Source: Branchiostoma lanceolatum (Eukaryota; Chordata; Leptocardii; Amphioxiformes; Branchiostomatidae). From it: a DNA stretch of 64,000 bases. Shown piece by piece: positions 35,971 through 64,000 of this stretch. Numbering within the stretch: the stretch's first letter is position 1; each line of letters opens with the position of its first letter. Below the pieces are notes generated by a model. The model saw nothing but the letters and a program-made list of their open reading frames with translations. It was not told where the DNA came from and made no database searches. The stretch spans positions 4,033,501 to 4,097,500 of the forward strand of contig NC_089736.1 of the NCBI RefSeq assembly GCF_035083965.1, read 5' to 3'. The position numbers and the translations under genes are program-made.

Positions 35971-36816
35971 ATGGCTGTGGTTCCAAACTTAGCGGAAGTC
36001 TTCCCCTTACTTCTCACGGCGTTCATCGTGGTCTCAGCCGCTGACTACACCTGCCCCTCCTCCTGTGCCTGTACTGACGCTTACGGGGAGCTCACCGTGT
36101 CCTGTGCCGGGCAGGGACTCACAGAAATCCCCTCAAACATTCCAACAGCCGTTATATGGCTAAACCTCAAGTACAACAACATCACAAGGGTCTCAAGCAG
36201 AAGTTTCCACGGTCTACAGAACCTACATGGAATCGATCTGTCAAACAACAACATCAAACACATCTCATCTTCTGCCTTTAAAAATCTTCATCATCTACAA
36301 AACGTAGACATTTCCAGTAACCAGCTATCCACACTGTCAGAGCAAGTCTTCAACATGTCTATCACATCGGCGAGACAAGATCAGAGGAACTTCTACGTCT
36401 ACATGGCAAACAATCCGTGGAACTGTGACTGTCGGTTAAAATGGCTGGCAGCGGAACTCAAAGCTGAATCTCACTACTACAGTGACAGACTAGTAACATG
36501 TAACCGACCTGAACAGTTGAGGGGAAAGGACTTAAAAGATGTACCACTAGATGGCCTAGTTTGTGCACGAAAACTGGGGTCAGCCTTCGACGGAAATGTT
36601 ATGGACGTATCTAGTTCTGCCACGCCTACTCCTACTAGTAAGCTGAGGGAACCAGATAAAAACAGGACCGATAAGATGTCGTTTAACATAGCTCTCGGCA
36701 CGGCGGCAGCTGTCATTGCGATTATTGTAGTGGGTGTAAAAGCGCACGAGTTTTACAAAAAGAAATGCTCACGTCGACAGCAGCCAATCTTAGAAGATTT
36801 AGAAACACTGGTTTAA
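35971..36816 (+). CDS. LRR1: small leucine-rich-repeat type I transmembrane protein
   Basis: A single coding exon of 281 residues. A signal peptide (1 to about 24) is followed by a cysteine-rich LRRNT (CPSSCACTDAYGELTVSC, 28-45), three or four LRRs between 57 and 135 with LxxLxLxxNxI spacing (VIWLNLKYNNI, LHGIDLSNNNI, LQNVDISSNQL), an LRRCT (NPWNCDCRLKWL..CNRP..LVC, 148-198), a Thr/Ser-rich stem, a membrane segment (about 237-256) and a 25-residue cytoplasmic tail with no recognisable signalling motif. The family is LRRNT-LRR-LRRCT receptors, the fold group that includes GPIb and lamprey VLRs. An acceptor at 35937 and a 33-nt leader show that a noncoding first exon lies upstream. LRR2 (47.2 kb) is a close paralog and LRR3 (60.8 kb) a more distant one. 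Confidence 0.9.
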   Translation: MAVVPNLAEVFPLLLTAFIVVSAADYTCPSSCACTDAYGELTVSCAGQGLTEIPSNIPTAVIWLNLKYNNITRVSSRSFHGLQNLHGIDLSNNNIKHISSSAFKNLHHLQNVDISSNQLSTLSEQVFNMSITSARQDQRNFYVYMANNPWNCDCRLKWLAAELKAESHYYSDRLVTCNRPEQLRGKDLKDVPLDGLVCARKLGSAFDGNVMDVSSSATPTPTSKLREPDKNRTDKMSFNIALGTAAAVIAIIVVGVKAHEFYKKKCSRRQQPILEDLETLV

Positions 36817-37719
36817 AGGAGATGATTCAGTGTATGGTAATTAAAACTTGGACAAAGTCAAGTTAATTGAAAATATGTATTACTAGTAACGTTATACATG
36901 ATTTACACTAGAAGAAAGACTGAATGCAGCTGCAGGACGTTTCAACGACTGCAGATGCAGAAACCAGTAGATGATGATGATACATGATTGTATATAGTAC
37001 AGAAAAAATGTCGCGCAATGTATCTTGTTCCAAGACTCTGGGAGCATGCTGCTATACTTTGTATATACTTGAGTTTGATTTGATATAATATTATTAAGTG
37101 GAATGTAATGTGCCTTCTACGGATGAAATTTGTCAGATTCTCGTGTCTTCTTTAAAAGAGATACAACCCACCTTGTTTTTTCTACTCTAGGACTTTCTGT
37201 CAATCATACATGGGGAAAACAGATGTACATACAGATTAATGTCCTAGCTACTGAAAGGACAAAAATATAGCTTAAGACAAGTATCATATTTGTTACATGA
37301 CATTGTGTTACTGTAAAGCTAATGATATATTGTTTACGTTCATGTTATTTTATATTTTATAAATAGATTATGACATCTGCTGAAGTTGTAATGTTGCCTG
37401 TCACAGCCTTGTACATGAATGTGAACATGTGTGGTCTCATTTGACAGAGAGTAGCGTATTCTTCTCTACTTGTATTTATTGCAATCACCACTCATGATAC
37501 TCATTGTATTTTATTCCAAATATCACTGTATACAAAGGTTTGCACACTAGAAAAAAAGCATTAAAACTAATAACTATGCTGTAATACACACCAAATGTAT
37601 AAAACCACGTTTTTTTCCACACATATGTTGTCAATTGTGGGCTATATTGTTACCGTTGTACAGTCATTTATTTGTAAATACACATAATGTATCTATTTGC
37701 TTGCCAATGTTACATTTCT
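36817..37719. other. Convergent 3' regions of LRR1 and LRR-death gene
   Basis: AT-rich untranslated-type sequence. For the minus-strand gene, an AATAAA (TTTATT on the plus strand at 37667-37672) lies about 50 bp past the stop. No other feature was seen. Confidence 0.5.
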
Positions 37720-38754
37720 TTAGTCGCTATTAGATGACTCTTCCAGAAATCCATATATTTCTGGATCAAGTTGAAAACTTTTCAGCTGTTCGACTAATGT
37801 TCCAACAGTTCCTTGTTCGCCCATTTCGTTCTTCCAAACGACAAGCATGTTAAAGATCTGTACCCTCGTGTTTCTGTTGTTATCTGCGATGAACCTGTCT
37901 ACTTCCGCCTTGGTCATACCAAGGTGAATTGCTAAACTTTCCCATTCTTTTCCAAGCTTTCCAGCCAATTTGTTCAACTGTTCCTCGGTGACTAGTTCTG
38001 TGTGTCTATACAGACTTACCAGATGGACGTACCTGCTTCTTTTCTTACACTTATATACAAGGGTTGCTATAAGTCCGATTGTAAAGAGAACACAAGCTAA
38101 AATGATGGGCAAGAGGTAACGCCATTTTGTTTTGCACCAGTAGTCGTGGATTTCGACATTTTGTATATCCGCGTCTTTCGGAACTTGACAGCGAACTCCT
38201 ACCCAGACACTCGGACGTTGTTTCACTTGTTCTTTCAGCCACTCGATATTACAGATACAGTCAAACATGTTGATAGAGCAGTCACACTGTTCACTGTCTG
38301 ACAGAAGGCCACCACAATGCGCATCGCAGTGGAAAGGGTTCCCGTCTAAATCCACCAACCCGAGGCTTTTCGCGGTGTTACCGAACGTTCGAGGAGAAAC
38401 GATTGTCAGTTTGTTCTTGCTCAGATCTACCTCATGTAGATACGTGAACATCTCTAGTGTTCCTTCTATCTGGGCGATTTCGTCAGACACAAGTCGAAGT
38501 CCTCTCAGATTCTTGAGACCACCAAACACACGCAGGTCCAGGACAGGTAGCTTGAACCCGGTGAGTGTGAGGTAGGTTGTATCCAGCGGCAGATCATCGG
38601 GGATGGTTTTCGAGTCATTTCCGTTGCAGACGACATTCAAGTCCACCACATATTCTTCACAAGTGCAGTTTGGAGGGCAGCTAGAAGCACACCACGTGCA
38701 CGACACCGACAACGCCGCAAACACGACGAGCCAGTACGTGTGCCACATCGACAT
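37720..38754 (-). CDS. LRR transmembrane receptor with cytoplasmic death domain
   Basis: A single coding exon of 344 residues. Signal peptide (1 to about 23), LRRNT (CPPNCTCEEYVVDLNVVC, 26-43), degenerate LRRs (55-140, e.g. LHEVDLSKNKL), and a cysteine-rich C-cap with an unusual insertion (HCDAHCGG..EQCDCSINMFDCIC, 142-168) before LRRCT-like EWLKEQ..RC..WC. The membrane segment is about 212-234 and is followed by a basic stop (KCKKRSR). Residues about 254-338 read as a death domain: LNKLAGKLGKEWESLAIHLG, then MTKAEVDRF..N, NMLVVWKNEMG and TVGTLVEQLKSF, the usual six-helix pattern with the central tryptophans. Death domains recruit adaptors such as FADD or TRADD to apoptosis or NF-kB pathways; the partner here is unknown. 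It lies head-to-head with TNF1. Confidence 0.9.
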   Translation of the reverse strand: MSMWHTYWLVVFAALSVSCTWCASSCPPNCTCEEYVVDLNVVCNGNDSKTIPDDLPLDTTYLTLTGFKLPVLDLRVFGGLKNLRGLRLVSDEIAQIEGTLEMFTYLHEVDLSKNKLTIVSPRTFGNTAKSLGLVDLDGNPFHCDAHCGGLLSDSEQCDCSINMFDCICNIEWLKEQVKQRPSVWVGVRCQVPKDADIQNVEIHDYWCKTKWRYLLPIILACVLFTIGLIATLVYKCKKRSRYVHLVSLYRHTELVTEEQLNKLAGKLGKEWESLAIHLGMTKAEVDRFIADNNRNTRVQIFNMLVVWKNEMGEQGTVGTLVEQLKSFQLDPEIYGFLEESSNSD

Positions 38755-39728
38755 ATCAGCCTCGGTTACCGTGATTCAATCTGAGCCCACAAGATTCCTG
38801 CGAAAATTGAATGGTTAAAAGGTTTTATGAAAATCACAACCTCGATCGTAAAAGTGGCGATCAAAATGTCATTTTAAAGGTTATCGCAATACAAACAAGA
38901 TGGCGGACGGAAAGCTTCCCCTTTTTTTGTCTCACTCGATCGGAACATTCCGATGAACTATTGGTGAGTATTCGGGGTCAATTTCACACCCTAAATGATC
39001 TTAACACCAGTCACGTTTAGTCATAAAAAGTACAACGTTAAATACATTCGCAGATATAAAAGGTCTCTCACCTGAATAGGTCGGTCTCTCATACCCGAAC
39101 GTTCGAACAGCAAGGTGTTACACAGGGTGTTCAAACTTTGACCTTATGGCGTCGTCACAGCCAAAGTAAATGTTGTCAGTCTGGTGTTTTGAACAGACGT
39201 ATTCACTACCCCCTGGCAGTTCCTCTCGGCTTCTCTCCTATTGGACAGGTTCAGCGGTATTCACTGTGGCTTTTCATCTATTGGCTGTGGTTGACCGCAA
39301 GCGCAGTGGAAGGCGGGAGGGTAAGATAATGCTGTTTGTTTACTCTCAGCTCATGACACGCCTCCGAAACACGAAGCTGCTGCACAACAGGTCAATCCTT
39401 TGCGAGGGAGATCAGATGAAACTTTTTCTCGGAAATCTTGTACCTGCTTTCGTCTCCTTGGTGATCGACAGCTCTCTTGTTCCACAGATCTAGTCCAAGA
39501 CTGAAAGTGGGACGGACTAGCATGTATATATCGTGCTTAAGGGAACGAAGCCAGCTGCAGGTTTCTTCAACTGGACATAACGCCTGGCATGCATATTCAG
39601 GTGCTTGTTTTGAAGTCACCGAGGCTTGCTAGCTGGGCACAGTTGGTAAAGGGTCGTGTTGCATAGACAGACAGCTCGCCTTGGAAACAGTGGAAACTTG
39701 GGAAAATGCTACACTGACTACATACAAC
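38755..39728. promoter_or_regulatory. Shared upstream region between LRR-death gene and TNF1
   Basis: Only 974 bp separate the two divergent start codons. No TATA box or defined factor site could be assigned by eye. Both leaders and promoters must fit in this interval, so shared control is possible. The call rests only on the divergent layout. Confidence 0.4.
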
Positions 39729-42700
39729 ATGGATCCGGAAAAATCTCACTCTGTGAAACAAGATGCGCAGTTCTGCGAGGCTGACGAGTCCAGAACAAGC
39801 CTCAGAAAACACGACAGCAGCTTTTCTGTGTTGTTGTTGTTCGTGTTTTTGTCCGTGTTGAATGGAGCTGGATACATGCACTTAGCAATGCGCCTGACAT
39901 ATGTTGAAGGTCAGCTTGCTTTGCAGTGCGCCCACCCTGGACAGTTAGTAAGAGAGACGGATAGACAACAACATGGTGTCATCGAAAAGTTTGAACAGAC
40001 CTGGGAACAAGGAGCTAACAATGAACAGGTATGCCAGAGTGTTCTTTGGCTCTTGTCGTCTTCAGAGACGGTCGACAGCTTTCGGTCCATTTCTCAGCTT
40101 AGCAGTCAGTCACGGTCACTCTGGGGGGGGGGGGGGGGGTCCTAGCTTTGCAGTGCCTCTCGTGACTTAGGAGACCAATTCTGGCACGGCAAATCCTGTT
40201 GCAGAAAGTGCAGTGAAAGACTTCACTGACGTTTATCCCCTCTGTTCTGTTTTTCCTTCTATGTCTAGCCTCCGATTCTCTCTTCTCACGGGCAGCCCTG
40301 TAGAGCTCCATGCCGCTGTGCACTGCTGCTCTCCATCTACATCTGTCTGCTGCTATTGTAAAATGGCGTCATGTCGTCATAGATATCATATTTCAAACTG
40401 ATAGCATTGAAAGTGAAAGCAAAGAACGACCACTAAAATGTGTTTCAATGGAACTACCACCTGATGACGGGATGCTTTGTTTCCGTGTATAAGGGTTGCG
40501 ACTCAATGATCGACGTATTTTATGATCTGATGTATTTCTGGAAAATCGAACTGATCGCCAGTGCGAAAGCCATTCAAAAATAAAGATGTTTTGTGCTGTG
40601 ATTTTAGCAAACGATGGGAGAACTCAAATCTTCACCCGCTCTTCACCCAAACTTTGGGAGGAAAAAACGATCAGAAGATGGGTCTTCTGCAGATAAATGG
40701 GAAGGTAAATGTACTGTAGCATTTATGCACGCTTTTATGTACCTTTACAGAGAATCATGGATTATAAAATCAACCAACCAAATCTGAGACTTTTAGTTCC
40801 GTCTGCGTTTACTGAATGTTGCATTATTGCAAGTTGATATTTGATAATACAACTTCAAAAGGTTTCATATCTTGCCGCAGAATTTTATACCTTGGTCTAA
40901 ACAAGTCGCCAGCTCACTGTTCTGTTAATGCTTACAAGTTGCTAATTCCATGCTTGTACTCCATAGTGCGTCTCTTCCACCCAAAAAGCGCGAACGGGAA
41001 AAGGCACAAGCGACACCACGACATGGCCAAGGGTGTGGTGGAGGTGCGAATTGGCGGTGGGAAATGGGGGAGAATCTGTGACCGGAACTGGGGCATCGCC
41101 GAGTCTAACGTGGTGTGCAGACATCTCGGGCACGACGGGGCCACCAGGTATATGTAAACATGATCTGCATCTTTTAGCACAGCTATTACAGGATATGCTG
41201 ATGAAGGTAAGACATCTGGATAATCGATATTTCTTCACAAATGAAAGTGTCACTATATACTACGTTATACCGGATAATCATATAACAGCCTCCAGTTTAA
41301 TCTGGGAATTCCAGTTTAATTTGGGACTACCTCCCACATTTCAGCAATCTTAAACCCGAATGGCTTAATATCACATCTGGTAGATAAAAATGTTTAAAAA
41401 TATGTAGCAGCCATTGGATTAGCCCAATTCTGTAATTCTGGGGAATGGAGTCAGAATTTCTCAGAATTTCTCAGAATTCTGAATTTGCTGATTTTTTTAG
41501 AATTCCGCAGAATTCTGAGAAATTGAGCCAGAATTCTGAAGAGGCTATAGACTTCGTTTTTTAACGTATCTAAAATATCCGATTTCTTCCTCAGTGCCAC
41601 TCTTTTATATTAGCTACAGGGTAACTTTCCTCTTTTCCTTATACACTCAACTGGTATCACACAGATTCTGCGAGTTAGAGTTTGCATTGACCAATGAAAG
41701 TTTCAACTTGTCACGTCACAGTTGTTGTAAATGCTACTAATATCAATGGCAGATCCTACAGGAGGGCTGCGGCCAATTTCGGACAGTACTTCAGTCCGCA
41801 CTTCTCCCTGAGTGACGTGGAGTGTACAGGGACTGAACAGTTTCTACAGGAGTGCAGGCACATCTTCGACACCACGTCATGCGAGGGGAAGTCTCGGAGC
41901 AAGATGTCAGCCGGGGTCAAGTGCGCAGGTAGAACAACGTTTTGCTGTTGTTTAAAACCATCTAATATTACAGTGTGAATTTCACCTACGACAGTGAAAT
42001 GGAATAACAAGAAATCTATGAATACATATCTTGTCCATTGAATGGACTAGTATATGATTTATACAGATATGTAGTTTGAATGACTATAAGTTTGCCTGTG
42101 TCCCTCATGGCAGTTACCGACGAGTGTATGTCCAGTCCGTGTAAGAACGGCGGGACCTGTCGGGACGGTCAGGACCGATACACATGCGAGTGCACGCCGG
42201 GGTGGGAGGGGAGGAACTGCGAGATAGGTAAGTCTCTCTTACAATCACAATATCTGCTTTGACACGATTAGAATAGTCCACTTTTCCAGACCCAATAGCC
42301 TACTGTATAAAAGTTCACTTTCTGTCTTAAAACATCTAAGTTCATTTATTTATAAAAACTAAGGCTAGTTTCCCCTTTGAAATATACAGGATGTCCAGTC
42401 TAAAATGCAACCAAATGTTCAAAAGAACATTTAACGTTTTCGAACGATCTCTCTCACTGCTTGTGTATATCAAACGTTTTGTTTATAAAGAATACGGTGA
42501 TAAGAAAACATCCCTGGGCAATTTCCTATACAAAATGATCAATTAGTTAAACACGAGGTTCATGCTATGTGACAATACATCTTCTTCCTCTCGTCCATTT
42601 GACAGAGACCAACAAGTGTTCGTCCTCTCCTTGTAAGAACAACGGCACCTGTGATGGCGGACAGTACAACTACACCTGCCACTGTACCGAAGGATGGGAA

Positions 42701-45095
42701 GGACCGACCTGCGAAGCCAGTGAGTTCTGAAACTTTGAAACAAATAATTGTGAAGGTTTTTGAAATTCCAATGATAGATATTACATATGGAAAGTAAATA
42801 ATTAATGCAATATGCCTATTTTTGTGTTAAAATATCACAGGTTATGTGGCACTATGGCGTGTCATAAACAAGACAATTTCTTCTACCACAGACTCGGATG
42901 AATGTGAAGTCAATCCCTGCCAGAACAACGCCACGTGTGTGGATGGAGTTAACACCTACAGCTGCCTGTGTGCCCTGGGGTGGGAGGGACGGGACTGTGA
43001 CAAACGTGAGTCTAGCTACGTCACGAAGATGGAACGTGTCATGTCAAAAGTACTGCAACTTAAATCATAATATTGTGTTTATCTATATATGAAACAGTCA
43101 TATTTCTTTTAAAACTATTCATTACAGACAAATGCAGTTCTGATCCCTGTCAGAACAACGGAACGTGTCACGTTACCCAGCATGGATACGCGTGCGCATG
43201 CGCACCAGGATGGCAAGGCCACCATTGTGAAAACAGTGAGTGTATTCGGAATAATAGATTTGACTTAGGTGTGCTTAAATATTAATTCATCGCAATCTTT
43301 TAAACTGCAAAAATCTGCAATGAATTTTCAGGGTTATTTTTTTTTCAAATCTGAAATGACTGTCCATGTTGTACCCATCCAGTGGAGAACGTGTGTGACT
43401 CCAACCCGTGTCAGAACCACGGCACGTGTCATAACGGTGGAGACCACTATATCTGTCAGTGTCAGCACGGATGGGTCGGGGTTCACTGCGAAACTAGTAA
43501 CGGTAGGTCTCATCAACGTATACGTACACTTAAGTAAGCTCCATGCAGTAAGGGTTTTGAAAATGTGATCAAATGCTCATAGATTTCATTCCATGGAGAA
43601 AGATTGAATATCGTGTCCATGTCTCTATATCAGACGTACCTGATATGAAGTGTTATTAACATGGCCTTAATACAAGCTTTTATTTTCTGACAGAGGAAAA
43701 TGAAAGCGAAAGCAGTCTTGTGGCATCGTCCAATGCCAGTTCACACCATGGATATCATAACATGGACTCGGTACGCTACTTTCACAATGCCTTTAATTCC
43801 ATAATCATTTCGGAATCCACAATAGAGAAAGTGTTGCATGAATTTTCCTAACTAAACTATGTAAGCTAACAACAAACGTTGACTGCTTTTTGTTTGTATC
43901 GATGGAAAAGGCTGTATATAATTTTTTTTTTTAAATTTCAACCAAAAATTGATGTTTTGTTTCAGAAGTCCTCCTCAACCTGGGTACACATTGCGGCCAA
44001 ATCAGGTATTGAATGTTTTATTCGTAATGGTAATTGCCTAATTGCCAAGTGTGCATAGCATTAGCACTTTTCGTAATATTCCCTCATACTTTTAGTTATA
44101 AAATTAAGGCATAGTCATAGCTTATCGTTGTGTCTTCCGTTCTTATAGACTCTGGTGACCACACTGTTACCATCGAGCGTAAGTATTTCAGATTGTCATG
44201 TTTAACTCTATACTTTGACTCCATGCCTCTCTTCCCCATGCTTAAATCACGCGAAGGAGATGTAAATGTTAAACCAACTTGTCATTGAAGAAAAAGCATG
44301 CAGCAATGATGTTATTTCATAGCCTATAGAAGAAAAACAGATATCGCATAAATCTTATTTGTTAACGGTTGGCCCGTTTTGTCGTACAGGTGGTCACGGG
44401 GTGCTGGCAGACCACTGGAAAAAGATTCGCTCCAACAAGTTCAGCTTGGACCATGGGAAACTAGAGGTAAAGGAGGAAGGAGACTACTACATATATAGCC
44501 AGGTAGGATATGCCAGAAGATAGATACCTTCTATGAATCACAATATTCAGTTTTCTCAATATAATGTCTTATTTGTGAATCTATTTTTTGATGCAACAAC
44601 TCCCACAATGTAAAATGAAACTCATGGCTAGCCCCACTCGATTGTAACACTACATCAACGACTTATGCTTGGCCTTATTATTCAGTTATTAGGATGTTAA
44701 CTTTTATCATATATTTCTATTTTGCACTGTGTCAATAGTTGCTGCCATACATTGTACCGTGTACGATTGCCGTGCAATAAAGTTCTTCCTCTTCTTTTGT
44801 GCGTCTTTCCTAACCTCGTCAATTATTGAATCTTCAGGTACAATATATGGAAAACGAGAAGAACGCCTACACAACCAACCACACTGTCATGGTGGCGGGT
44901 AAACATGGCGGACCCGACCACTTCCTGACATGCGTACATGAGATGTACGGCTTCCCGCCCTACAAGACGTGCTTCACAGCGGGCATGCGCAAACTGCACA
45001 AGAAGGACGTGGTGTACCTACACGTTCCCTGTGACGGGTGTGCTATCTCTCTGGATCATGACACCACGTTTTTCGGTCTGATGAAGCTTACTTAG
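39729..45095 (+). CDS. TNF1: type II membrane TNF-superfamily ligand with SRCR and five EGF domains
   Basis: Fourteen exons join in frame to 611 residues: 39729-40028, 40608-40704, 40967-41147, 41753-41928, 42114-42227, 42606-42719, 42892-43005, 43128-43235, 43383-43496, 43694-43770, 43966-44005, 44149-44178, 44390-44502, 44838-45095. Short cytoplasmic N-terminus; membrane anchor about 32-52 (ends YMHL); furin-type site RKKR at 118-121; SRCR domain 133-251, split by a phase-2 intron; five EGF domains (252-439), each in its own phase 1-1 exon; a Ser/Thr stem (440-488); TNF domain 489-611 with [18 protein letters not shown] and TTFFGLMKL. The paired cysteines and CFTAG/TFFG motifs recall ectodysplasin. 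Predicted role: a cleavable trimeric cytokine acting on nearby cells. An AATAAA lies at 45809. Confidence 0.93.
40123..40139 (+). repeat. Homopolymer of 17 G
   Basis: An uninterrupted run of G in TNF1 intron 1, adjoining the 3' end of a minus-strand LINE fragment (as poly-C in its sense). The run length is prone to sequencing error. Confidence 0.9.
40140..40395 (-). mobile_element. LINE C-terminal fragment in TNF1 intron 1
   Basis: On the minus strand about 75 codons read [19 protein letters not shown], a basic stretch, then [19 protein letters not shown] and ERHCK. This is the CxxC..RIGLxSHxR zinc-finger end seen at the C-terminus of many non-LTR retrotransposon polyproteins. No reverse transcriptase remains beside it, so it is a 5'-truncated relic. 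Confidence 0.7.
41425..41540. repeat. AGAATTCTG-rich simple repeat
   Basis: Several close copies of CAGAATTTCT / CAGAATTCTG occur in TNF1 intron 3, the intron that splits its SRCR domain. It has the character of a local low-complexity expansion. Confidence 0.6.
44725..44800 (+). mobile_element. Retroposon 3' tail in TNF1 intron 13
   Basis: Second copy of the 33310-33400 sequence, ending GCAATAAAGTTCTTCC then a CT-rich run. It lies just upstream of the last TNF1 exon and includes an AATAAA that could in principle cause premature polyadenylation. Confidence 0.5.
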
Positions 45096-45974
45096 ACTCA
45101 GTTGTATAGTTTCAGTATTATTTGATCTTTGCCGCGAGACAGACAATCATGGCGTTTTGTTGATTACTAGATTCAAGTCGCAAAATAGTAATTGGATTTT
45201 CATCATATACAGTTCATGGTATCTTTAATGAGTTGCTGCTGCTTATCTGTTTTCAAAGTAATGAAATATTCGAGTAAAACCTACACGTATTACAGTAACT
45301 TTTGTATATATTGTATTATGTAACATATCATGACTAGGTAATAACGATGTACGAGTATAACAGGAGATGCAACTGATATTCATTCTGTGATGTTTTTCAT
45401 TTGGGCATAATGTCAGTACAATAGACATGATAGAGGCGCAATGAAAGTTTCTCACGGAGTCTGAACAGTGTTACAGCAAGTTCACTGCCAAAATATAGTA
45501 TATGTTTGTAAATATGGGTGATTCTTACTTAGAGATATAATGATAGAATGTATATATATTCTTGGAGTTTCACTGGTTTACCTAGACATTGATCTTTTGG
45601 ATTATTGCATGATATTTAGTAATTTTGGTAAACGGAGCATGCATATCTATTTGTTCATTTATCAATCTTTTGGGTGGTCCCTTCAGTTAACATTGTAACT
45701 GATTGTCTAGATTTTCACAGAGCCAAACCTTTATGATTGACCACAGCTCAACATTGAGCAAGGAGGGAGTTGTGATGGGTTCAATATATTGTATGGTTTT
45801 GTGTTGTAAATAAATTCAGTCATGAATCCCTTTCAATGTGTACACGTGAAAGAATAAATACAACAACTAATGTGATATGGACAAGATTAAAAGTTTGCTC
45901 AGTGCAAGACCCGACGACTTCTTCAAGGTTACGGGTAACATGAGGAGGGTTGGGACAGTCTCACTCCCCCCCCC
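45096..45974. other. TNF1 3' region
   Basis: AT-rich, probably 3' untranslated sequence up to the AATAAA at 45809-45814, then spacer with a short C run near 45967. No gene was seen. Confidence 0.45.
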
Positions 45975-46390
45975 CCCATGTATAACTTCCTTGAAAAGAG
46001 GTTGTATACACTAGTGCGTTTATGACTAGTCAGTTGATCCACGTTTATATTTATGCCATACATCATTCTCCAGTTGCATGTTACTGTATATACGAGCTCA
46101 CACTTGTTGATATATGGCCTAAAAGTTCGTTATTGCCTATGAAAGTGAAACAAGTACAGAGAATTCATTTCCTTCAAGACCGTGTCTAAACTGGGCCAAT
46201 CCTGTGTGACAGAGATTGATTACAACAGACATAATGGCAAGCTTCAGGGGCTACGAATAGCGTATGCATGAATAGCGCCTCTATTGTAAACATGACCTAA
46301 CAGGTATAAAGGTTACGTCTGGCACAAAGCCAACTGTAACCTGACGACGCCGTACCTGGGAGTGAGGAAGAAAAACAACAAAATGGCGCA
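45975..46390 (+). repeat. Upstream block B, likely LRR2 promoter/5' leader
   Basis: Paralog of block A (32376-32870), with the same order of conserved segments but only one copy of the 29-bp unit and an extra insertion near 46255. A possible 5' leader with a donor (GAG|GTCAGT near 46512) follows, and the LRR2 acceptor is at 47183. Two such blocks preceding two paralogous LRR genes favour promoter duplication. Confidence 0.55.
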
Positions 46391-47190: not shown

Positions 47191-48045
47191 ATGTGGACCA
47201 GACTTCACACGACAGCGATGGTCGTACAGGAGCTATGTTTACTACTCTTGTCCGTCTTTGTGCTGGCCGAGACGGACGATTCCGACTGTCCATCCCCCTG
47301 CTCCTGTACTGACCAGTACGGAGAACTCGTCGTCAGCTGCGGAGGACGACAGCTCGAGAGAATCCCTGAAGACATCCCGCCATCAGTCATCTGGCTCGAT
47401 CTGAAGTACAACAACATCACCGACGTCACGTCTACGAGTTTTGAAGACATTACCCAAGTGAAAGGCATCAATCTGAGCCATAACAAAATTCATACGATAT
47501 CAGTTGATGCCTTTAAGCACCTGAAGCATCTGGATACGGTCGACCTGTCCCAAAACTTGCTGAAAACCATCTCATACGACTTGTTCAAAATCCCCATAGA
47601 CTCAGCTGTAAGAGATGCCAGACGTTTCTTTGTTACCTTAGCAATGAACCCCTGGCTGTGTGACTGTAGTTTGGAATGGCTGATAGAGTTATTCAGAAAT
47701 GACTCTCAACTGTTCAGTAGTAGGCTTGTAACGTGTGATGCTCCTGAGACGTTGCAAGGTGTAGATGTGAAAGAAGTGTCCCTTAGTAAGTTCTTATGTC
47801 CAATTGCAACAATCATGCCAACTGAAGAAAAGGATAACAGCACCTACCACTCTATGCCGGCGTCAGGGAGACATGTCTATCATCTTCCTGTGTATATGTT
47901 AGCACCGTTTTTTGCCATACTGGTTCTAACAGTGGCACTCGCATTGTTTGTGAGAAGATGTATGGAAGGAAAGTCCCCAAATAGGTATAGGAGAATACCT
48001 AATGATGTCTTGTTGACTGGACATGAGAAAGATGGGTCTGTCTGA
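47191..48045 (+). CDS. LRR2: small leucine-rich-repeat type I transmembrane protein
   Basis: A single coding exon, 284 residues from the first ATG after the splice acceptor; a later ATG (47218, residue 10) would give a better-placed signal peptide. LRRNT CPSPCSCTDQYGELVVSC (33-50), LRRs VIWLDLKYNNI, VKGINLSHNKI and LDTVDLSQNLL, LRRCT NPWLCDCSLEWL..C..LC (154-203), a short stem with an N-glycosylation site (NST), a membrane segment at about 233-254, and a 30-residue basic tail (RRIPNDVLLTGHEKDGSV). It is clearly paralogous to LRR1: the same VIWL.LKYNNIT block and the conserved S.RLVTC before the last cap. Ligand and function are unknown. Confidence 0.9.
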   Translation: MWTRLHTTAMVVQELCLLLLSVFVLAETDDSDCPSPCSCTDQYGELVVSCGGRQLERIPEDIPPSVIWLDLKYNNITDVTSTSFEDITQVKGINLSHNKIHTISVDAFKHLKHLDTVDLSQNLLKTISYDLFKIPIDSAVRDARRFFVTLAMNPWLCDCSLEWLIELFRNDSQLFSSRLVTCDAPETLQGVDVKEVSLSKFLCPIATIMPTEEKDNSTYHSMPASGRHVYHLPVYMLAPFFAILVLTVALALFVRRCMEGKSPNRYRRIPNDVLLTGHEKDGSV

Positions 48046-52100: not shown

Positions 52101-52170
52101 AACGTGCAACATCGGCACGGAGGCGGACAGAACGTACTTTGGGGCCATCAAACTTTCTGCTAAATTGTAA
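49157..52170 (+). CDS. TNF2: type II membrane TNF-superfamily ligand with SRCR and one EGF domain
   Basis: Nine exons join in frame to 418 residues: 49157-49432, 49593-49662, 49866-50192, 50575-50694, 50914-50948, 51098-51134, 51254-51289, 51458-51561, 51919-52170. Membrane anchor about 22-43 (ends VYVHL); a basic junction QKRSYR (RxxR) in exon 2 could be a protease site; a full SRCR domain 116-224 in one exon (GRLEVR..GEWGTICNDRWD..VVCRQLGY..LDEVICAG..L.EC..NCGHDEDVGVVCAG); one EGF 225-264; stalk exons ending ASLLSVHIPART, shared almost exactly with TNF3; TNF domain 301-418 with GKYFVYSQ, SCTLPVEG..TCYTGGVLDL and RTYFGAIKL. The EDA-like cysteine pair is kept. An AATAAA lies at 52844-52849. 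Confidence 0.93.
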
Positions 52171-53301: not shown

Positions 53302-56300
53302 ATGGATAAACACAGCGACGACGCGATTTACAGAAGCGAAACGCGACAAGGTGACATACGACGTCTACAGTTAGTTCTGGCCGGCACAGTTTGCCTGTTA
53401 ACATGTTTTATCGTGGTAAACATTCTTGTTTACGTTCATTTGACCGCCGCCATTGCAGACCTGTCGCACAGAGTCGGTGTGGAGAAGAATGAAGATACCT
53501 CCATTGATCCTAATTGGATAACCGTTAACGCTCCGGACGTCGAGACTACTAAGGGGCTAGACAGCAGACAAGACAACACTAGAAATCAGGTTGGACTTTT
53601 AGTAAATGACAGGCTGTCTCACTAGCATTGACAAAAGCTCCTTGTTAGGCATTGCAACACAGCTAAGGCCTTTGAGATAAGCTATCGTATCTATGAATTT
53701 GATACCTTTGGAAAATGTACTTTTGACGTTGAAGAGAAAGGTTAGTGTAAATCTCCCAGGTGTATGTAGAAGTCAATGTACGTAAACATTGTAGTTGCAT
53801 TGTATTTTTAGCTGTCGAACATGTCAAGTAAAGTCGTAATTTGTCTATTTATCTAACACTTTCTTTGGTCGGTTCCAGTCACTGACTCATTTCCCAGGAC
53901 TCTCTCGGCAAAATGGACAAGTGAGAAAGAGAAATGGTAACTTTTAAAAACTTTTCCTCAAACACAGATATCAAATTTAGTTGCATCTCAATTCTACATT
54001 CATTACATAGACATAGACTTCGGAATAGATTGACCCATCATGTCAGCATTAACTGTACTCATTTTTTTAAAATCTTAAGCACGCTCGACATGTGGACTAT
54101 ACGAGTACCAGTGTCATAATGGCCGCTGCATTCCCTCAAGCTGGCAGTGCAATGATGATTATGACTGCAGCGACGGCTCTGACGAACCTCCTTTGAATAC
54201 AAGATGCGGTAAGTACTTTTTAACGACAAAAACATTATAATAACTGTTAAGTTGTGAAAGATTGCAATACATTTATCAATGTGACTTCAGAAAGCAAATG
54301 TTTGTAGCTAGAACATTCTTCTGCCGAGACAAGCATGTTAACAAAGATACTTAAATACTGAATTTACACAGGCTCGTTGGTTTGGAACATACATACTTTC
54401 AACACGATTGTTAAACTGTGTGTTTGTTTTTGCCTTTCAAGCATACCCACCCTACGAGTGTGAAAATGGGTACAACATTCCCTCAGTTTTTCAGTGCGAT
54501 GGTGATTTCGACTGTACCGACGGTTCTGACGAATATCCTTGGAATGAAAAGTGCAGTAAGTACTTCTTAACGAGCAATACCTTCTAAAAAATCGAATATA
54601 GTAGTACAAATTGTTCTGATGAGTGATTGCAATGAATCTTTCTATATAGTATAGCATAGTAGTTCTTGTCAAGACACCAACGTTAGTGAAGATGCTCGAA
54701 TGGTGAACTTCCAAAGGTTAATAGAAGTGTATAAAATGTAAAGATATATGTTGATAGTAATATATAGAGTTCATTAGGACTTAAATGACATAAACTGTGT
54801 CTCTGCCATACTTTATCTGACCCTTACCTCTTCCTTCCTGACCTCAATGAAAAGCGGTTTGCATGTCGATTTGAGTTTCTCAGGAAGACACAAAGATTCA
54901 AACAAACAAACAAACAAACAAACAAACAAACAAACGCATGCGCATAATTTTGGTTATTAATGGTTATTAATTAAACTGCATTTTTGTCTGCCTTTTGTGA
55001 ATGTGTAAAGGTTAATCTGCATGAATACACATTCCCATAATTTCCACATGCTGATAAAGTTTCCTGTTTGATTCATTGATGTCTAATGCATCATTATGCA
55101 GATTGTCTACTTTAATTCTAGCCTATGGAAGTGAAAATGCATTTGACAGATTTTCACCACGTCTTTGGCCATTGAAGGTTCTTTTCATGTATTTCGTGCA
55201 GAAAAAGACCACTGTGAAACACACCGGTGCCAGAACAACGCCACCTGTCTCGCCAAAGAACATGGCTACACCTGTATTTGCCCCGAAGGCTTGCATGGAG
55301 TATTTTGCCAAAACAGTGAGTCAATGTTTTAAGTATACCTTTTGTGTACTCGGTTGTTACAGCAAAAGAACAGAGATTACGTTTTAAACAGTAAAAAAGT
55401 GCTCGGATGATATGTTTTGCCATCGTCATTTTGATATCATAATTGTCTGACACATTTATCTGGACCAGCTAAACAACCATCTTTCCTTTTCAAAATAGCT
55501 GAACGTGGACGACGCCGAGGAAGGGGGGGTAAAAGCAGGGGACGCCATGAAATAAATTCTCCCATCATTTGAGCACTATTAGCCGTATTTTTTCTGATTT
55601 CAATCACGCTCAACATGTAGTCAGGACACCTTCAGCATAGACGTTTATGAATATAAGGTCACTTGTTTTCCAAGACAGACATTTAATGAACATTTGTAGA
55701 TACTGAATTTCAACGGGTCGTTAAAATCTACATAATTTGACCATGATTTTAAAACTTTTTTTTTAAGAACGTTTGACATGTAGTAAGTACGAGTACCAGT
55801 GCCAGAATGGCCGCTGCATTCCCTCAATCTGGCAATGCGATTACGATGACGACTGCAGCGACGGCTCTGACGAACCTCCTTTGAATGCAAATTGCAGTAA
55901 GTACATTTTAATTACACGGACTTTTCAACAGCTATAGAGCAAGATGTTAGCTACGAAATGATTGCAATAAAGTCACCGGTGTGATATATTTGTTTCGGAA
56001 CAAATGTTTCAACATTCATCTGCCAATAAAAGCATTTTGATAAAGATACTTCATTTACACTGGTTTGTTATTCAGAACATACATAATTTCAACATCATTG
56101 TCAAACTGTGTTGTTATTTGCCTTTTAAGCACACCCGCCCTACAGGTGTAAAAATGGGTACAAGATTCCCTCAGTTTGGCTATGCGATGGCGATGTCGAC
56201 TGCACCGACGGTTCTGACGAATATCCTTGGAACGAAAAGTGCAGTAAGTACTATTTGAGATGATGGCACAGATTTTTGTTCTGATGAGCGATTGCAATAG

Positions 56301-59014
56301 ATGTTCCAATACGAATTTTTGCCAATATGGTATTTATCCGAAACCTTTGGTAACTAAGGCATATTGTCAGGGTAATAGTGTTATCTCAAATAGGGAACTT
56401 CAAAGAGGTTGTTCGTGACGTAACACATGTACATGAGTCCAACATTTTACTTTTACGCAGTCCCTAATGCAGATAAAGTCTAAACAAGTGAAAATGGATA
56501 TGACAGATGTTCTATGATTTTTGCTCAGCCCCCACCAGGACTTCCTGGGTGTATGGGGTAAGGGATAGTAAAATAAGGCAAAAAAGGGGAATAATTGGCC
56601 AGGAGAGTCAGTCCACGGTAAGGTTAACATCCCCCCACCCTGGAAATTAAACCCTCTGGTGGCCAAACTCGGAATGGGAGTAACTCCCATGGCAAATTAC
56701 TCTCCCTTTAACCTGAGGGTAGTCAGTCTGGTAGAGACTGATTTTTGTTGTTGTGTCTTCAGAATTAGAAGAGCACTGTGAAACACACCAGTGCCAGAAC
56801 AACGCCACCTGTCGCGCTACAGAAGATGGCTACACATGTATCTGTACTGATGGCTGGCTTGGAAAGTATTGCCAACAAAGTGAGTCAATGTTAACTCAGC
56901 CTTTTGCGCAATAGCTAGTGTAACTCAAAGCAGAGTGACACTTGAAATGCGTCAGAGATATAGCAAAGGGTGAAATTAGGGAAAAGATAGACAAATTTGC
57001 TCCTAATATACAATTCAATTTTGTTTGTTTCTCCTCTTCTGAAAGTCACATCTACCCGAGGTGTAGTAAGTGTTTTTTGATACCCAGAACTTTTTCACTT
57101 TTACAATGGGCCCTGATAGAGTTAAGGTCCAAGCAAGAGAAATGTTTTACGTCGATTCTTGCTGTTGAAACTTCATTGTATGGTTCTCTTTTAGAAATAG
57201 ATCAGTGTAAACCACACCAGTGCCAGAACAACGCCACCTGTCGCGCCACAGAAGATGGCTACACATGTGATTGCACCAACGGTTGGCGTGGAACTTTTTG
57301 CCAAAAAAGTGAGTAAATGCTATTTCAGCCTTTGTAACAATAAAAGTAGCATTGCAATTGAGGTGTGAGAAGAGTCAAACAGTATTCAGGTGAAGAGATA
57401 TCATATGTTTTTCTATCTTCATTTTGATATGATATTGTTTGACACATTTATCTGGACCAGATATTAACAGCTGTTTCTCCCTTGCAAAATGCCTGAACGT
57501 GTACTGCAAGGACAACGCCAACGAGGGGTGCGTCAGGGGAAAAACTATGGTCTGGTAAGGCCTCAAGTAAAACTGCACAGATGCTTCCTATCTGTATCTT
57601 TGACATCGTTCCGATTTTTAACGATTTTTCTTTTATGTAATTCGATAATTTAGACCAATCAAATAATACAACAGTTGGTTCTCTGTTATGTTGGCTCATG
57701 TACTGTTATTTGGTTTATAGTTGTCATTGCTGTCGGTGCACATTCAAGCCAGAACGGGTAAGCTGATAACAAACTCTGTTGTCTGCTGTCTTTCCTTATA
57801 CCACTCAGCTGAAGTCCACATTTCTGTTTCATCTTTGGAACTGACATCGTTTTCATTTTCTTATCCTAAAGATACGACGGAAACAGCTGGCTCAATACCA
57901 GTGACCGGTAGGTTAAACCACTCAAATCTCGCATGTAACTTGTTTTTTTATATCAAGGCGTGATCTCTATCTAGAATGTAAGAGTTCGAGTACGTAAGGA
58001 TAGAGACTAAAAGTTATTTTGGTCGGTAGGCAACTTTACCCAGTGGAGAGACATCACAGAGACCAGGTTTGGGCTTCAGTACGGACAGCTGATGATCAAA
58101 GAAACAGGGAAGTACTTCATTTACAGCCAGGTATGTATTGTTTTTGTCGCAATCTGGATGGGTCAAACATCGTGCCCTAATATGTGAAGTATATATACGT
58201 GTAGTTTGGTTCAGACTTTTAACCTTTAGGAGGTGTACGTCAGTGTTCTCAATCGAAGATAATCAGAAACCATTAACCAGAAAGGTACTATTATATATAT
58301 GACATACCAAATATCATTAACTAAATGAAAGCTTCATTTGCATAACTAATGACAGATTTTAGAATTATTTGTAGTAAGAGATAGTTGGCATCAATAAGGC
58401 AAATTATGATCATATTTGCTTGATACATGAGAAATGTCATCATAGTTTAGCGGCAAGTCATGGTAAGTCCATATTTGTGTCACATTGTGAACATCGCTAG
58501 ACATATTTAGGTATTTAGGAGTTAATGATCAATTGATTATTGACGGGATAAACAACGTTAAAACTGTAGTATAACTTAACACAATCTTAACAACCTGTTA
58601 ATTTCTGAGGACAATATTTTCTTGATATCATCTGGACCTCATTGTAAGCAATGAATTTCCTTGTCACTAGCTTTATCAAGTGTATGAACAAATAACTGGG
58701 GATGTTTTACATACTATTAGGTTTACTTCTCCGGTGAAAAGGATGATGCTGTGGCCAGGTATTCCATCAAAAAGGGAGGAGAAGTAAAACTGACCTGTGA
58801 GAGACCTCTGACCGGAGTGCCGCCCCCTCTAACCTGCTACACCGCCGGCGTGCTGGACTTACTGCGCGGAGATGTACTGGTCCTCTACGTGCCCAAACGC
58901 AGCTTGATCGACACAGCTGAAGACGCAACATTTTGGGGTGCTGTCAAGCTGTCCATTGATTTTCCAAAAGAGGAAAGGCCACGAAAGAAAAAATCGAAAA
59001 AAGGGAAAACATAG
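53302..59014 (+). CDS. TNF3: type II membrane TNF-superfamily ligand with four LDLa and three EGF domains
   Basis: Fifteen exons join in frame to 572 residues: 53302-53589, 53879-53936, 54080-54208, 54442-54555, 55202-55315, 55499-55528, 55768-55896, 56130-56243, 56763-56879, 57195-57308, 57511-57554, 57721-57757, 57872-57907, 58030-58130, 58721-59014. Membrane anchor about 23-46 (YVHL); dibasic RKR in exon 2; LDLa 116-158 and 159-196; EGF 197-234; a tiny Arg-rich exon 235-244; LDLa 245-287 and 288-325; EGF 326-364 and 365-402; basic stalk 403-417; [15 protein letters not shown] domain 442-572 with [26 protein letters not shown] and ATFWGAVKL. The tail is very basic ([11 protein letters not shown]). 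The stalk exon 57511-57554 was chosen because it alone fits both neighbouring phases; the small exon 55499-55528 is less certain, and skipping it keeps frame. Confidence 0.9.
54080..57560 (+). repeat. Internal tandem duplication within TNF3 (LDLa-LDLa-EGF-stalk module)
   Basis: Module 1 (54080 to about 55555) and module 2 (55768 to about 57560) match in exons and introns: both first LDLa exons are 129 nt and both second ones 114 nt, donors all begin GTAAGTA, and intron segments such as TTTATCTGGACCAG precede the stalk exons of both. Module 2 has gained one more EGF exon by a further tandem copy (56763-56879 and 57195-57308). Confidence 0.85.
54899..54936 (+). repeat. AAAC microsatellite
   Basis: About nine uninterrupted AAAC units in the TNF3 intron between the second LDLa exon and the first EGF exon. 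Confidence 0.9.
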
Positions 59015-60819: not shown

Positions 60820-61572
60820 ATGGTGGTACATACTTCTCTCGTCCTAATCCTGCTTGCTGCGATTCAGAGCGCAGTGGCTTACTGCCCTGAAGCCTGCAAA
60901 TGTACACCTACAAGGGGCGGACAGATCGTAACTTGCATTGGAAGTAACCTGAAGACCATACCCGATGGGCTACCAACCGATACCGAATGGCTAAACATAC
61001 GGGACAATGACATACAGATCCTGAACTTAGACGATCTTAAGACTCTGTCTCGTCTGCAAGGTTTAGACGTCTCCAGCAACAGCATCAAGACCATAACGGG
61101 GTCGTTTGAAGACTGCCCGAACCTGGTAGACGTCCAACTCTACCAGAACAACCTGGCAACTTTGCACCCAACCACATTCGGCAAAGCTCTAAAATGGATG
61201 CAGTATGTCTCACTGAACAACAACCCTTGGGACTGTGACTGTAACTTGAAATGGTTGATTACAGAAATGGACTCTGAGGATTCTCCCTTGTCTTCACAAC
61301 TGGTAAAGTGTGAGACCCCAGAGGAGTTACGTGGCAACTACACCGCAGACATTGACGTGGACAAACTGGTGTGCAAGAGGATCCAAGGACCACATCGTCT
61401 GTCACAGATGCACATAATACTGATAGCAACCTCAGCAGCAACTGCAGTGGTTGCCGTTGTGGCTGCTGCAGTTATCCTTACACGTTGTCGCCGGGATGCA
61501 CCCCTCCCTCTGCCTGTCACTGTAAGTGAGGATGATGTGGACGACGCGCTCAATGCTTCAACTCGTAAGTAG
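60820..61572 (+). CDS. LRR3: small leucine-rich-repeat type I transmembrane protein
   Basis: A single coding exon of 250 residues. Signal peptide (1-20), LRRNT CPEACKCTPTRGGQIVTC (22-39), LRRs with TEWLNIRDNDI, LQGLDVSSNSI and LVDVQLYQNNL, LRRCT NPWDCDCNLKWL..KCETPEELRG..LVC (135-185), a membrane segment at about 198-220 that is rich in Ala and Val, and an acidic tail (VSEDDVDDALNAST). It is more diverged from LRR1 and LRR2 than they are from each other. The last codons (CTC|GTAAGTAG) form a consensus splice donor at 61565, so the tail may continue in an unseen exon. No such exon was recognised downstream. Confidence 0.88.
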   Translation: MVVHTSLVLILLAAIQSAVAYCPEACKCTPTRGGQIVTCIGSNLKTIPDGLPTDTEWLNIRDNDIQILNLDDLKTLSRLQGLDVSSNSIKTITGSFEDCPNLVDVQLYQNNLATLHPTTFGKALKWMQYVSLNNNPWDCDCNLKWLITEMDSEDSPLSSQLVKCETPEELRGNYTADIDVDKLVCKRIQGPHRLSQMHIILIATSAATAVVAVVAAAVILTRCRRDAPLPLPVTVSEDDVDDALNASTRK

Positions 61573-63853
61573 AATATTATATTGGTTTATCCTTTAAAAC
61601 TTTGGACAATTCACCCCCCCCCCCCACACACACACACCCTATTTGCAGAAAAGTATCGAAACCTTCAAATAGCATAAGTAGAAATACATTTAGAATAGCT
61701 GCTATTTCGACCATAAATCTATTTATTATGTCTTTCATTCTTCTTGCATACCATCACCGTTTTTGCTTTGTTTGTATTTGTATAAATGTATTTTTTTAAA
61801 GTTACAACCAATATTGTTTTTAGAAATAAAATTCCAACTCACCGCACTGATATTGGGAGCAACGTACTGACAACTAAGACGTCAACATTTTTCCTCCAAG
61901 TCATACATTTTCACGCAGTTCAGATGGCAAGATTTACAAACAGGTATAATTACTAGGAGTAGTCAAATATGGAGTACCCTGCAGTGGCAATCCATTCTAT
62001 GAACAAGTCCCGTTATCTAAAAGACATTCAATACACATTCTTTGTCAATATGAACGTGGGAATTTTTTGTGTGCGAGAGTTTTCACAGGGATTTATTATG
62101 CTGTAATAAAAAATGATATAGAAAATTGTAGAAAAGATGTAGACGTTGTTAAAAAAACATATATTTTAGGCAGATGATGTAGCCACGTATATTTATACTC
62201 TACGGCAGGACCAAAGTCTTTGCGGTCGGGACTCCCGGGATGGCTTCGCCCTGACCAGATAAATTCTCGAGACATCTACCAGTCATCCAGTAACTCAGGC
62301 GTGTGATACCCGACGCGACCTGTGCATCTTCAATGGTTGTAATGTACACAACTGCAGATCTGGAAGTATTACAGATTCATATTAGATTATAAGCCTTGAT
62401 AGGGATGCTTGGATGTAAAAAAAAATCTGTTAAATCTTGCCTGAAACGTTTATTTAGTTTACTGAATATACTCTACATCATTTCAAGGAAGAAATTATTT
62501 TTCTCTGTACATGTTATGTTTTAGGAATTAAGTAGCTATAGAATAACAATTGTTTTTGGACGTGGAAGCTGATATCTGTTAACAGATCATACAATTGGCT
62601 AGGTTTATTATTTCAGTGTTTTTTCCTGACGTTGTAGTCATGGCATTTATGTTTTGTTGTTGTTGTTGCGAAATTGACTTAGAATTGTTAAGCAAGGCAA
62701 AAAGTAACGACTTAAGCGTTGCAGGTTTGATGATATTATGCGTATTTTGTAATTTTCTGCAGGTGAAAAAGATGCTCATGTTGTGTGATTTGTAGCATTG
62801 TATTAGAAATATATAGACGTGTGCCATATGTGTGGATTTCGGAGTGAGAAATTGGCGCATGGGCGAACTGGCAATGTAGCAAAACGACCGGTTACAGAAA
62901 CGCACACCATTGGTCAACCACCGCCTGTGCGAACAAAACAACACGAGCATCTGTATGACGTGCGTTTTATGTGTGAATCTCTGTGTGTTGTCCAAACATC
63001 TGAGACGAATCCGTGTGAGCTTGAGTGTAAACAATAAGCCTTGGTTTTCATTCTGATTTTGTATGTGTTTTTGAAAATAAGATTCATCATCAAAAACGTT
63101 GGCTTTCGAATAATTTACAACATTGTTCATTTTTCATAACAATTGCAATTACCGGCAGGCCTTTACTAATTTGGGATGATGATGATAAAACTAAATTTGG
63201 ACGTCTTTGTTTGTTTATTTGTTTGGTTTGGGTGTGATAGGTGTGAAAGGGTCACCCATTACGGTGTGGTCCAAAACACCAGTCTGTACTGTCCTATTGT
63301 GATTATTGCTATTAAGAAAATAAATGCATACTTGAAACAATATATCACCTGATGATTGTGTCTTTCTACCTGCACAAAATATAGATAAATATGAACCACA
63401 AAATAAGAGCTGTCTGAAATGTTTCATTTACAGAAAATCACTGAAAGATATGCCAGTACTAACATTAACGTTTTAGCTGCCCTCGCCCCCGTATCTAACC
63501 ATGTAGTGCTACACTAATGAAAGCAGCCCTCTAAACCCCTTCAGTGTTTACATTCTTCATAACGAGTGACATATTTTGGTGCATCTTTACCTGGCGTGGG
63601 ACTGACAGAACGACATACAATGAGATATATGATAACCATGACAGGGAGCAATGTTGCGGTAAAATAACGCCTTCTAACAAAGGCGAGAAACTCACCGGCG
63701 GTTGCCTAAGGCAAATGTGCCGTGACCCGTACATCACCTTTCGTTCTAAGTATTGCAGCTCTTTTGAGCTCAGCTCAGTCTAAACACCTACAGTTCACAC
63801 GGCGGCTTAGCTGTTGTGTGTCATCTCAGTGTAGAAAGCCAGTAGCCACCAAC
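61573..63853. other. LRR3 3' region and TNF4 promoter
   Basis: A C-run plus CA repeat lies at 61613-61638. At about 62340-62200 on the minus strand a GC-rich stretch reads GITRLSYWMTGRCLENLSGQ and goes on to a stop. It is unlike its AT-rich flanks and may be a repeat or gene remnant. From about 63700 the sequence resembles the TNF3 leader. Nothing else was recognised. Confidence 0.4.
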
Positions 63854-64000
63854 ATGACTACACACAGCGGTTATGTAGAGTGCCGGAACCAAAAGATATA
63901 TGGAGATAAAAGACGTCTACAGTTCGTCTTGGTCGGCCTTGTTTGCCTGTTAGCATGTCTTCTCGTGGTGATCGTTCTTGTTTACGAGTACGTTCATTTG
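63854..64000 (+). CDS. TNF4: N-terminal exon of a further TNF-family gene (cut by window edge)
   Basis: The open frame starts MTTHSGYVECRNQKI and then has KRRLQFVLVGLVCLLACLLV..YVHL, closely matching TNF3 exon 1 ([23 protein letters not shown]), including the basic pair before the membrane segment and the YVHL motif after it. The upstream leader also resembles TNF3. TNF4 is therefore almost certainly a type II anchor exon of a fourth ligand. The stalk and TNF domain would lie outside the window. Confidence 0.8.
   Translation, partial: MTTHSGYVECRNQKIYGDKRRLQFVLVGLVCLLACLLVVIVLVYEYVHL

Follow-up and report, generated by a model that had tools for sequence, protein, structure and literature searches.

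Predicted mosaic TNF ligand genes interleaved with leucine-rich repeat receptor genes in a lancelet gene cluster

Ligands of the TNF superfamily are normally plain proteins consisting of a membrane anchor, a stalk, and a TNF head, and in BAFF, APRIL, and EDA a convertase cleaves between anchor and head. In amphioxus, TNF genes are reported to occur in tandem clusters (PMC4346834), and for Branchiostoma floridae at least 24 genes for TNF ligands and 36 for TNF receptors are reported (PMC12843592, citing Huang 2008). Peptidoglycan and Gram-positive bacteria are ligands of the VLR-like leucine-rich repeat (LRR) protein Bf66946 of B. floridae, whose binding to bacteria is abolished by changes at Asp105/Asp107 (PMC4731796). 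Genes of both kinds stand side by side in a 64,000-nucleotide stretch of Branchiostoma lanceolatum (assembly GCF_035083965.1, contig NC_089736.1, positions 4,033,501 to 4,097,500; "the window"), where eight genes follow one another in the order LRR1, LRR-death, TNF1, LRR2, TNF2, TNF3, LRR3, TNF4. We read this locus, with a probability of about one-half, as one end of a tandem cephalochordate innate-immune cluster, in which exon-shuffled and probably shed mosaic TNF ligands would stand beside LRR receptors that bind microbes separately.

Gene models were built from open reading frames (ORFs), splice-site scoring, and Pfam within this 64-kb window. Seven genes lie on the plus strand and only LRR-death on the minus strand; each of the four LRR genes is a single exon, whereas TNF1 to TNF3 are multi-exon genes (39729-45095, 49157-52170, and 53302-59014). 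The gene order proposed in an earlier note on this DNA is confirmed, and the families that it assigned hold by the genes' own domains in seven of the eight cases. Its picture of type II TNF ligands interleaved with LRR receptors, one carrying a death domain, also stands once the strand of LRR-death is amended to inverted. Of the four TNF ligand genes that it named, TNF1 to TNF3 are borne out by Pfam; TNF4 consists of a membrane-anchor exon only, and any TNF domain that it has must lie past the window end. What the earlier note missed altogether are the SRCR, EGF, and LDLa exons within TNF1 to TNF3.

With these exons included, the domain order given by Pfam on the computed models is TM-SRCR-EGF x5-TNF in TNF1, TM-SRCR-EGF-TNF in TNF2, and TM-LDLa x2-EGF-LDLa x2-EGF x2-TNF in TNF3 (TM, transmembrane segment), and all of the mosaic domains exceed the Pfam cut-offs. 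The three loci are alike in plan, with the anchor exon first and the stop-terminated TNF exon last, on the same strand and in the same order. The anchor exons (39729-40028, 49157-49432, and 53302-53589, respectively) encode a cytoplasmic tail, a signal-anchor TM, and the start of the stalk. In TNF1, a six-cysteine SRCR domain (40967-41928; Pfam 4.3e-18) is divided between two exons at approximately 40967-41147 and 41762-41928, the 5' acceptor being uncertain, and is followed by five EGF modules of one phase 1-1 exon each (42114-43502; Pfam EGF 1.9e-39 in five stretches) and a TNF homology domain (44390-45095, in exons 44390-44502 and 44838-45092 plus stop; PF00229 4.8e-13). TNF2 carries its six-cysteine SRCR domain in one exon (49866-50192; Pfam SRCR 4.9e-30), then a single EGF module (50575-50694; Pfam EGF 8.8e-5) and a TNF homology domain (51254-52170, in exons 51254-51289, 51425-51561, and 51919-52167 plus stop; PF00229 3.7e-12). 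TNF3 encodes LDLa 1 and 2 (54080-54208 and 54442-54555; Pfam Ldl_recept_a 7.7e-34 in four stretches over the protein), EGF 1 (55202-55315; Pfam EGF 3.7e-17 in three stretches over the protein), LDLa 3 and 4 (55768-56243), EGF 2 and 3 (56763-56879 and 57195-57308), and a TNF homology domain (57809-59014, in exons 57809-57907, 58030-58130, and 58721-59011 plus stop; PF00229 5.5e-11). At the best-scoring junctions, every one of the 13 EGF and LDLa exons begins and ends in phase 1, which is the class expected for shuffled extracellular modules. The first exons of TNF1 to TNF4 each hold one hydrophobic stretch (best 19-residue means from 1.92 to 3.52), and a type II topology is predicted for all four proteins.

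The stalk of TNF3 (54075-57504) was lengthened when LDLa-LDLa and EGF units were duplicated within it together with their introns. LDLa 3 and 4 are a copy of LDLa 1 and 2 including the intron between them, with 76.7% DNA identity over 511 columns. The ratio of nonsynonymous to synonymous change (dN/dS) is 0.40 and 0.36 for the LDLa copies (42 and 37 codons) and 1.07 for EGF 1 against EGF 3, on 37 codons that are too few to judge. This stalk seems to be still growing. TNF4 (63854-64000, running off the window) is represented by a first exon encoding tail and signal-anchor TM, which shares 53% identity with TNF3 over 49 amino acids of the anchor exon and 82.7% DNA identity over 75 bases.

The C-terminal position of the TNF homology domain makes TNF1 to TNF3 members of the TNF ligand superfamily, and a C1q identity of the heads was rejected, there being no C1q match in Pfam. 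Among single ligands in the PDB, the best match is BAFF for the TNF1 head (1.9e-12) and EDA for the TNF2 head (2e-12), and the TNF3 head matches BAFF (4.6e-9), EDA (5.3e-8), FasL (2.1e-6), and APRIL (2.9e-6); 4zch, in which one chain holds three ligand heads, ranks first for each of the three. Two antibody chains also matched in the TNF3 search, surely spuriously. All three heads have the cysteine pattern Cys...TC[YF]T. These likenesses suggest that the heads belong to the BAFF/APRIL/EDA kind, a placement with modest tree support; in the tree, TNF1 may sit nearer to BAFF/APRIL than TNF2 and TNF3 do, a point that the approximately unbiased (AU) test cannot decide.

Because amphioxus SRCR domains join unusually many partner domains (PMC2575513) and lancelets show the fastest exon shuffling known in animals, with a bias to 1-1 exons (the 2014 genome paper, PMC4284660), a new domain mix is expected here in kind. 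A tandem cluster of amphioxus TNF genes is likewise not new, having been reported before (PMC4346834). We found no description of TNF ligands with SRCR, EGF, or LDLa modules in the titles and abstract openings searched, although Huang 2008 and supplements fall outside that search and an earlier mention is possible.

The LRR genes fall into two groups. LRR1 (35971-36816) encodes a type I receptor of the Bf66946 family with a signal peptide, LRRNT, LRRs, LRRCT, TM, and a short tail (Pfam LRR_8 2.1e-14, LRRNT 3.1e-6), and LRR2 (47191-48045, with its start at 47191 or 47218) encodes a receptor of the same VLR-like family (LRR_8 6.4e-14). Both show the features of that family, namely, an LRRNT with an insertion, few LRRs, a long connecting stretch (CP), and an LRRCT. 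The best PDB sequence match is 4xsq, the structure of Bf66946, for LRR1 (2.1e-59, next 5.6e-39; 89 of 174 residues identical, or 51%) and for LRR2 (3.4e-49, next 1.6e-35; 84 of 172, or 49%), and neither protein is separated from Bf66946 in the tree. That both have a B. floridae protein as their best match agrees with a cephalochordate source of the DNA. Foldseek with an AlphaFold model of LRR1 also ranks 4xsq_A first (1.5e-17); the model has a mean pLDDT of 63.6, is reliable in no more than its N-terminal and LRR portions, and served for this ranking only. LRR-death (37720-38754, minus strand; LRRNT-LRR-LRRCT-TM-death domain; Pfam Death 1.3e-13, LRR_8 2.8e-6; TM window 2.68) and LRR3 (60820-61572; LRRNT-LRR-LRRCT-TM; LRR_8 1.9e-8) lack the long CP before the LRRCT and cluster together (ultrafast bootstrap [UFBoot] 97) apart from LRR1, LRR2, and Bf66946, so that the tree divides the four genes between two different LRR lineages. 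For LRR3, the LRRC4 family ranks above 4xsq in the PDB search. A Pfam IPT/TIG match over its LRR region (60820-61569; 5.4e-5) is probably spurious.

Toll-like receptors carry a cytoplasmic TIR domain, and the VLR antigen receptors of lampreys derive from an incomplete germline gene that is completed by LRR cassette assembly. None of the four LRR proteins has a Pfam match to a cytoplasmic TIR domain, and LRR1 to LRR3 are complete single-exon ORFs, which sets them apart from these two receptor classes. LRR1 to LRR3 also have short tails with no Pfam signaling domain. Estimates of dN/dS among the LRR genes ran into saturation of synonymous changes in two of three pairs.

Shedding of the ligands is suggested by candidate exons next to the anchors. 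The best donors of the TNF1, TNF2, and TNF3 anchor exons are all in phase 0 (scores 4.4, 2.2, and a weak 0.3) and fall within about two aligned residues of one another's place; a linker exon of phase 0 to 1 should therefore come next. The top candidates are 40608-40704 in TNF1 (splice score 6.1), with an RKKR convertase-like site, and 49593-49662 in TNF2 (4.3) and 53879-53936 in TNF3 (5.6), each with a KR-type dibasic site. The motif [KR]R occurs in the top linker candidates of all three TNF genes versus 43 of 400 control segments, and R.[KR]R occurs in the top candidates of 4 of the 400 controls. These candidate sites fit shedding of TNF1 to TNF3 by a convertase near the membrane, as in BAFF, APRIL, and EDA.

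On the reading that we favor, the mosaic stalks would have arisen by shuffling, which inserted phase 1-1 exons encoding SRCR, EGF, and LDLa modules between the part for the anchor and that for the TNF domain. The ligands would form trimers and be cut by a convertase just outside the membrane, so that the SRCR, LDLa, and EGF modules would remain on the TNF head after shedding. There the modules may tether the ligand to the surface of a microbe, to glycans, or to matrix, and signaling would pass from the head to cysteine-rich TNF receptors of the ordinary type, with genes at other places in the genome. Microbes would be bound by the LRR proteins independently, and LRR-death could also signal inside the cell.

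Several points weigh against this account. As many as 21% of control segments score at least 4.3, the lowest linker score, two of the three linker basic sites are without R at P4, and the basic-site test was devised after the peptides had been seen. The exon joins of TNF1 to TNF3 are computed, and in the models submitted to Pfam the anchor exons of TNF2 and TNF3 end before the ends now preferred and the linker exons are not included; the first TNF-domain exon of TNF1 was sought and could not be placed. A six-frame regular-expression scan of the window, which is a weak test, gave no match to the cysteine-rich repeats of TNF receptors, and the analysis covers one window only. The Asp105/Asp107 pair of Bf66946 reads N/D in LRR1 and T/D in LRR2, and since only Asp107 is kept, the ligand of Bf66946 cannot be assumed for these proteins; the requirement for the pair is known from Bf66946 only and is not strictly a family mark.

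Many TNF receptors carry an intracellular death domain, as does LRR-death. Combined with the close linkage of the LRR and TNF genes, this invites the alternative that the linked TNFs have the LRR proteins as their receptors: an LRR ectodomain would grip the trimeric TNF, and the signal would be relayed by LRR-death or an adaptor. It had been argued that, classical TNF receptors not being LRR proteins, such a pair would be undescribed; however, BAFF-NgR1 (PMC7858582) and RANKL-LGR4 (PMC12655559) are published precedents. The ligands here are BAFF/EDA-like, and NgR1 is among the PDB matches of LRR1 (1.1e-28), but at a threshold of 0.001 LRR1 has matches to 275 distinct PDB sequences, so that the NgR match is generic. 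Moreover, the LRR and TNF trees do not match as pairs, three of the four LRR proteins have short tails without a Pfam signaling domain, their closest solved relative binds peptidoglycan (PMC4731796), and 36 genes for TNF receptors are reported in B. floridae (PMC12843592, citing Huang 2008). We therefore regard this alternative as very unlikely. Given the vertebrate precedents, the linkage is a lead rather than evidence.

If LRR1-TNF1, LRR2-TNF2, and LRR3-TNF4 had arisen as co-duplicated pairs, the LRR and TNF trees should match. Our trees are small, with six TNF sequences, none of them an amphioxus TNF from elsewhere, and five LRR sequences. A sister grouping of LRR2 and LRR3 is rejected in all three placements among the five sequences (AU 0.021, 0.018, and 0.013), as is one of TNF1 and TNF2 in all 15 placements among the six (largest AU 0.0225). 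For TNF1 with TNF3, 1 of 15 placements reaches an AU of 0.125, the placement tried first having given 0.020, and the grouping of TNF2 with TNF3 is favored with modest support (UFBoot 71, FastTree 0.84). In its first exon and the DNA ahead of it, TNF4 is closest to TNF3. These two are the youngest duplicates, and no LRR gene was found upstream of TNF3, between it and TNF2. By blastn, there is no DNA similarity between the cluster halves outside the LRR1/LRR2 coding stretch.

Three duplications of an LRR plus TNF pair thus find no support in trees or DNA similarity, and since the trees are small, the results count against the pair model without amounting to proof. The earlier note was right that both families include local paralogs, and the LRR-then-TNF unit that it fitted three times does fit by position, but not by descent; its claim that the unit duplicated as a pair finds no support in view of the AU rejections and of the TNF3/TNF4 duplication, which left no LRR gene upstream of TNF3. 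A sister relationship of TNF1 and TNF2 on account of the SRCR domain in both was rejected by the same 15 placements, and so SRCR probably either was present in the ancestor, with LDLa taking its place in TNF3, or was acquired on two occasions.

The same trees bear on a single old block duplication, in which a Bf66946-type LRR, an LRR of the second type, and a TNF were copied once to give LRR1/LRR-death/TNF1 and LRR2/LRR3/TNF2-4, with TNF2-4 multiplying later. The grouping of LRR3 with LRR-death, apart from LRR1, LRR2, and Bf66946, argues for such an event, as do the grouping of TNF2 with TNF3 and the closeness of TNF4 to TNF3. However, order and orientation differ between the supposed copies (LRR-death is inverted, and LRR3 lies between TNF3 and TNF4), blastn similarity is confined to the LRR1/LRR2 coding stretch, the tree does not separate LRR1 and LRR2 from Bf66946, and TNF1 may be nearer to BAFF/APRIL than TNF2 and TNF3 are. 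We consider this history unlikely.

Chance may also have brought these genes together. With 948 LRR-only gene models in B. floridae cited in PMC4731796, LRR genes could fall beside tandem TNFs without functional meaning. Alternation beyond chance was rejected, since four genes of each family can be ordered in 70 ways, of which 26 show at least as many runs as the cluster does (with LRR-death left out, 7 of 35), and the derivation of LRR1/LRR2 and LRR3/LRR-death from two different lineages points in the same direction. On the other hand, four LRR genes lie within 26 kb with no other recognized gene between them, and the 36 kb to the left are without LRR or TNF matches by tblastn. We give a chance neighborhood real but limited credence. 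Most likely, the LRR-TNF linkage goes back to local duplications within an immune region; it is not a proven ligand-receptor pairing.

None of 24 intergenic stop-to-stop ORFs of at least 70 amino acids reaches a Pfam family cut-off, and tblastn (E 0.01; EGF not used as a query) finds no further LRR, TM, TNF, SRCR, or LDLa copies between the gene models or in 1-35970. That no other gene stands between the cluster members, as had been stated, holds in the sense that none is recognized by these searches; genes of short exons only could escape them. Within that scope, the ORF scans and tblastn ruled out a hidden gene or an LRR/TNF relic between the genes or leftward. The left border of the cluster should accordingly lie near 35971, and the right side runs on past the window. 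The best match among the intergenic ORFs, to DUF1106 (0.0011), comes from one to the left of TNF4 (61950-62174) and at 19.4 bits falls short of the family cut-off of 27. NF-kB-like sites number 10 in the window, and two of the eight genes (LRR1 and LRR3) have any of them in the 600 bases upstream, so the scan was uninformative as to a common NF-kB-like control of the cluster.

To the left of the cluster, one gene is recognized, an EcKL (ecdysteroid kinase-like) gene of at least two exons (29316-30919; Pfam 6.2e-21 and 4.6e-11); apart from it and LRR1, none of 13 left-hand ORFs of at least 120 amino acids exceeds a Pfam cut-off. A long inverted repeat (3735-4851 and 5465-6579) has arms of about 1.1 kb that are 94% alike; the roughly 0.6 kb between them hold a smaller inverted pair (4853-4955 and 5107-5209). 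Its form resembles that of a mobile element or of a hairpin-type duplication. In 8829-16312, short repeats recur several times in either orientation, with a tandem overlap near 16111-16312. An interspersed repeat pair, 67.7% alike, has one copy left of LRR2 (46025-46339) and the other outside the cluster (32464-32772).

Should the ligands prove to be mosaics as predicted, they would couple cytokine signaling directly to the recognition of a microbe or surface, and one of the core cytokine families of vertebrates would have acquired exon-shuffled domains in a close relative of theirs. A further proposal, to which we assign little credence, makes the locus a system that recognizes and raises alarm: the mosaic TNFs would be soluble pattern-recognition cytokines whose SRCR or LDLa modules bind the microbe and whose BAFF/EDA-like head signals, with the linked VLR-like LRR proteins reading the coated target or the ligand. 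Because BAFF-type ligands and LRR antigen receptors both take part in vertebrate lymphocyte biology, the linkage could be the trace of an ancient ligand-receptor partnership, older than the adaptive immunity of vertebrates. The linkage of TNF genes to VLR-like receptors raises the testable question of whether LRR proteins and BAFF-type ligands cooperated before there were vertebrate lymphocytes.

Class A scavenger receptors such as MARCO are type II proteins with a collagen stalk and a six-cysteine SRCR domain in terminal position. TNF1 and TNF2 resemble them in the predicted type II topology and in the six cysteines of both SRCR domains, and MARCO-like receptors differ in having no TNF domain. 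TNF1 to TNF3 share with the BAFF/APRIL/EDA branch the type II anchor, the Cys...TC[YF]T pattern, and the candidate basic cleavage site near the membrane, but in them anchor and head are separated by SRCR, EGF, and LDLa modules, in the place taken by a collagen stalk in EDA. The LRR protein NgR1 is anchored by glycosylphosphatidylinositol. Action of BAFF via NgR1 has been discussed and partly tested (PMC7858582), and RANKL binds LGR4, a G protein-coupled receptor (PMC12655559); in both systems an LRR ectodomain is reported to bind a TNF-superfamily ligand, which the LRR proteins described here would do on the receptor alternative. The nearest counterpart of LRR1 and LRR2 is Bf66946. They have about half of their residues in common with it, keep its Tyr32 and Glu34 in the LRRNT insertion, and possess the long CP ahead of the LRRCT; they differ from it in the replacement of Asp105 and in their linkage to TNF genes.

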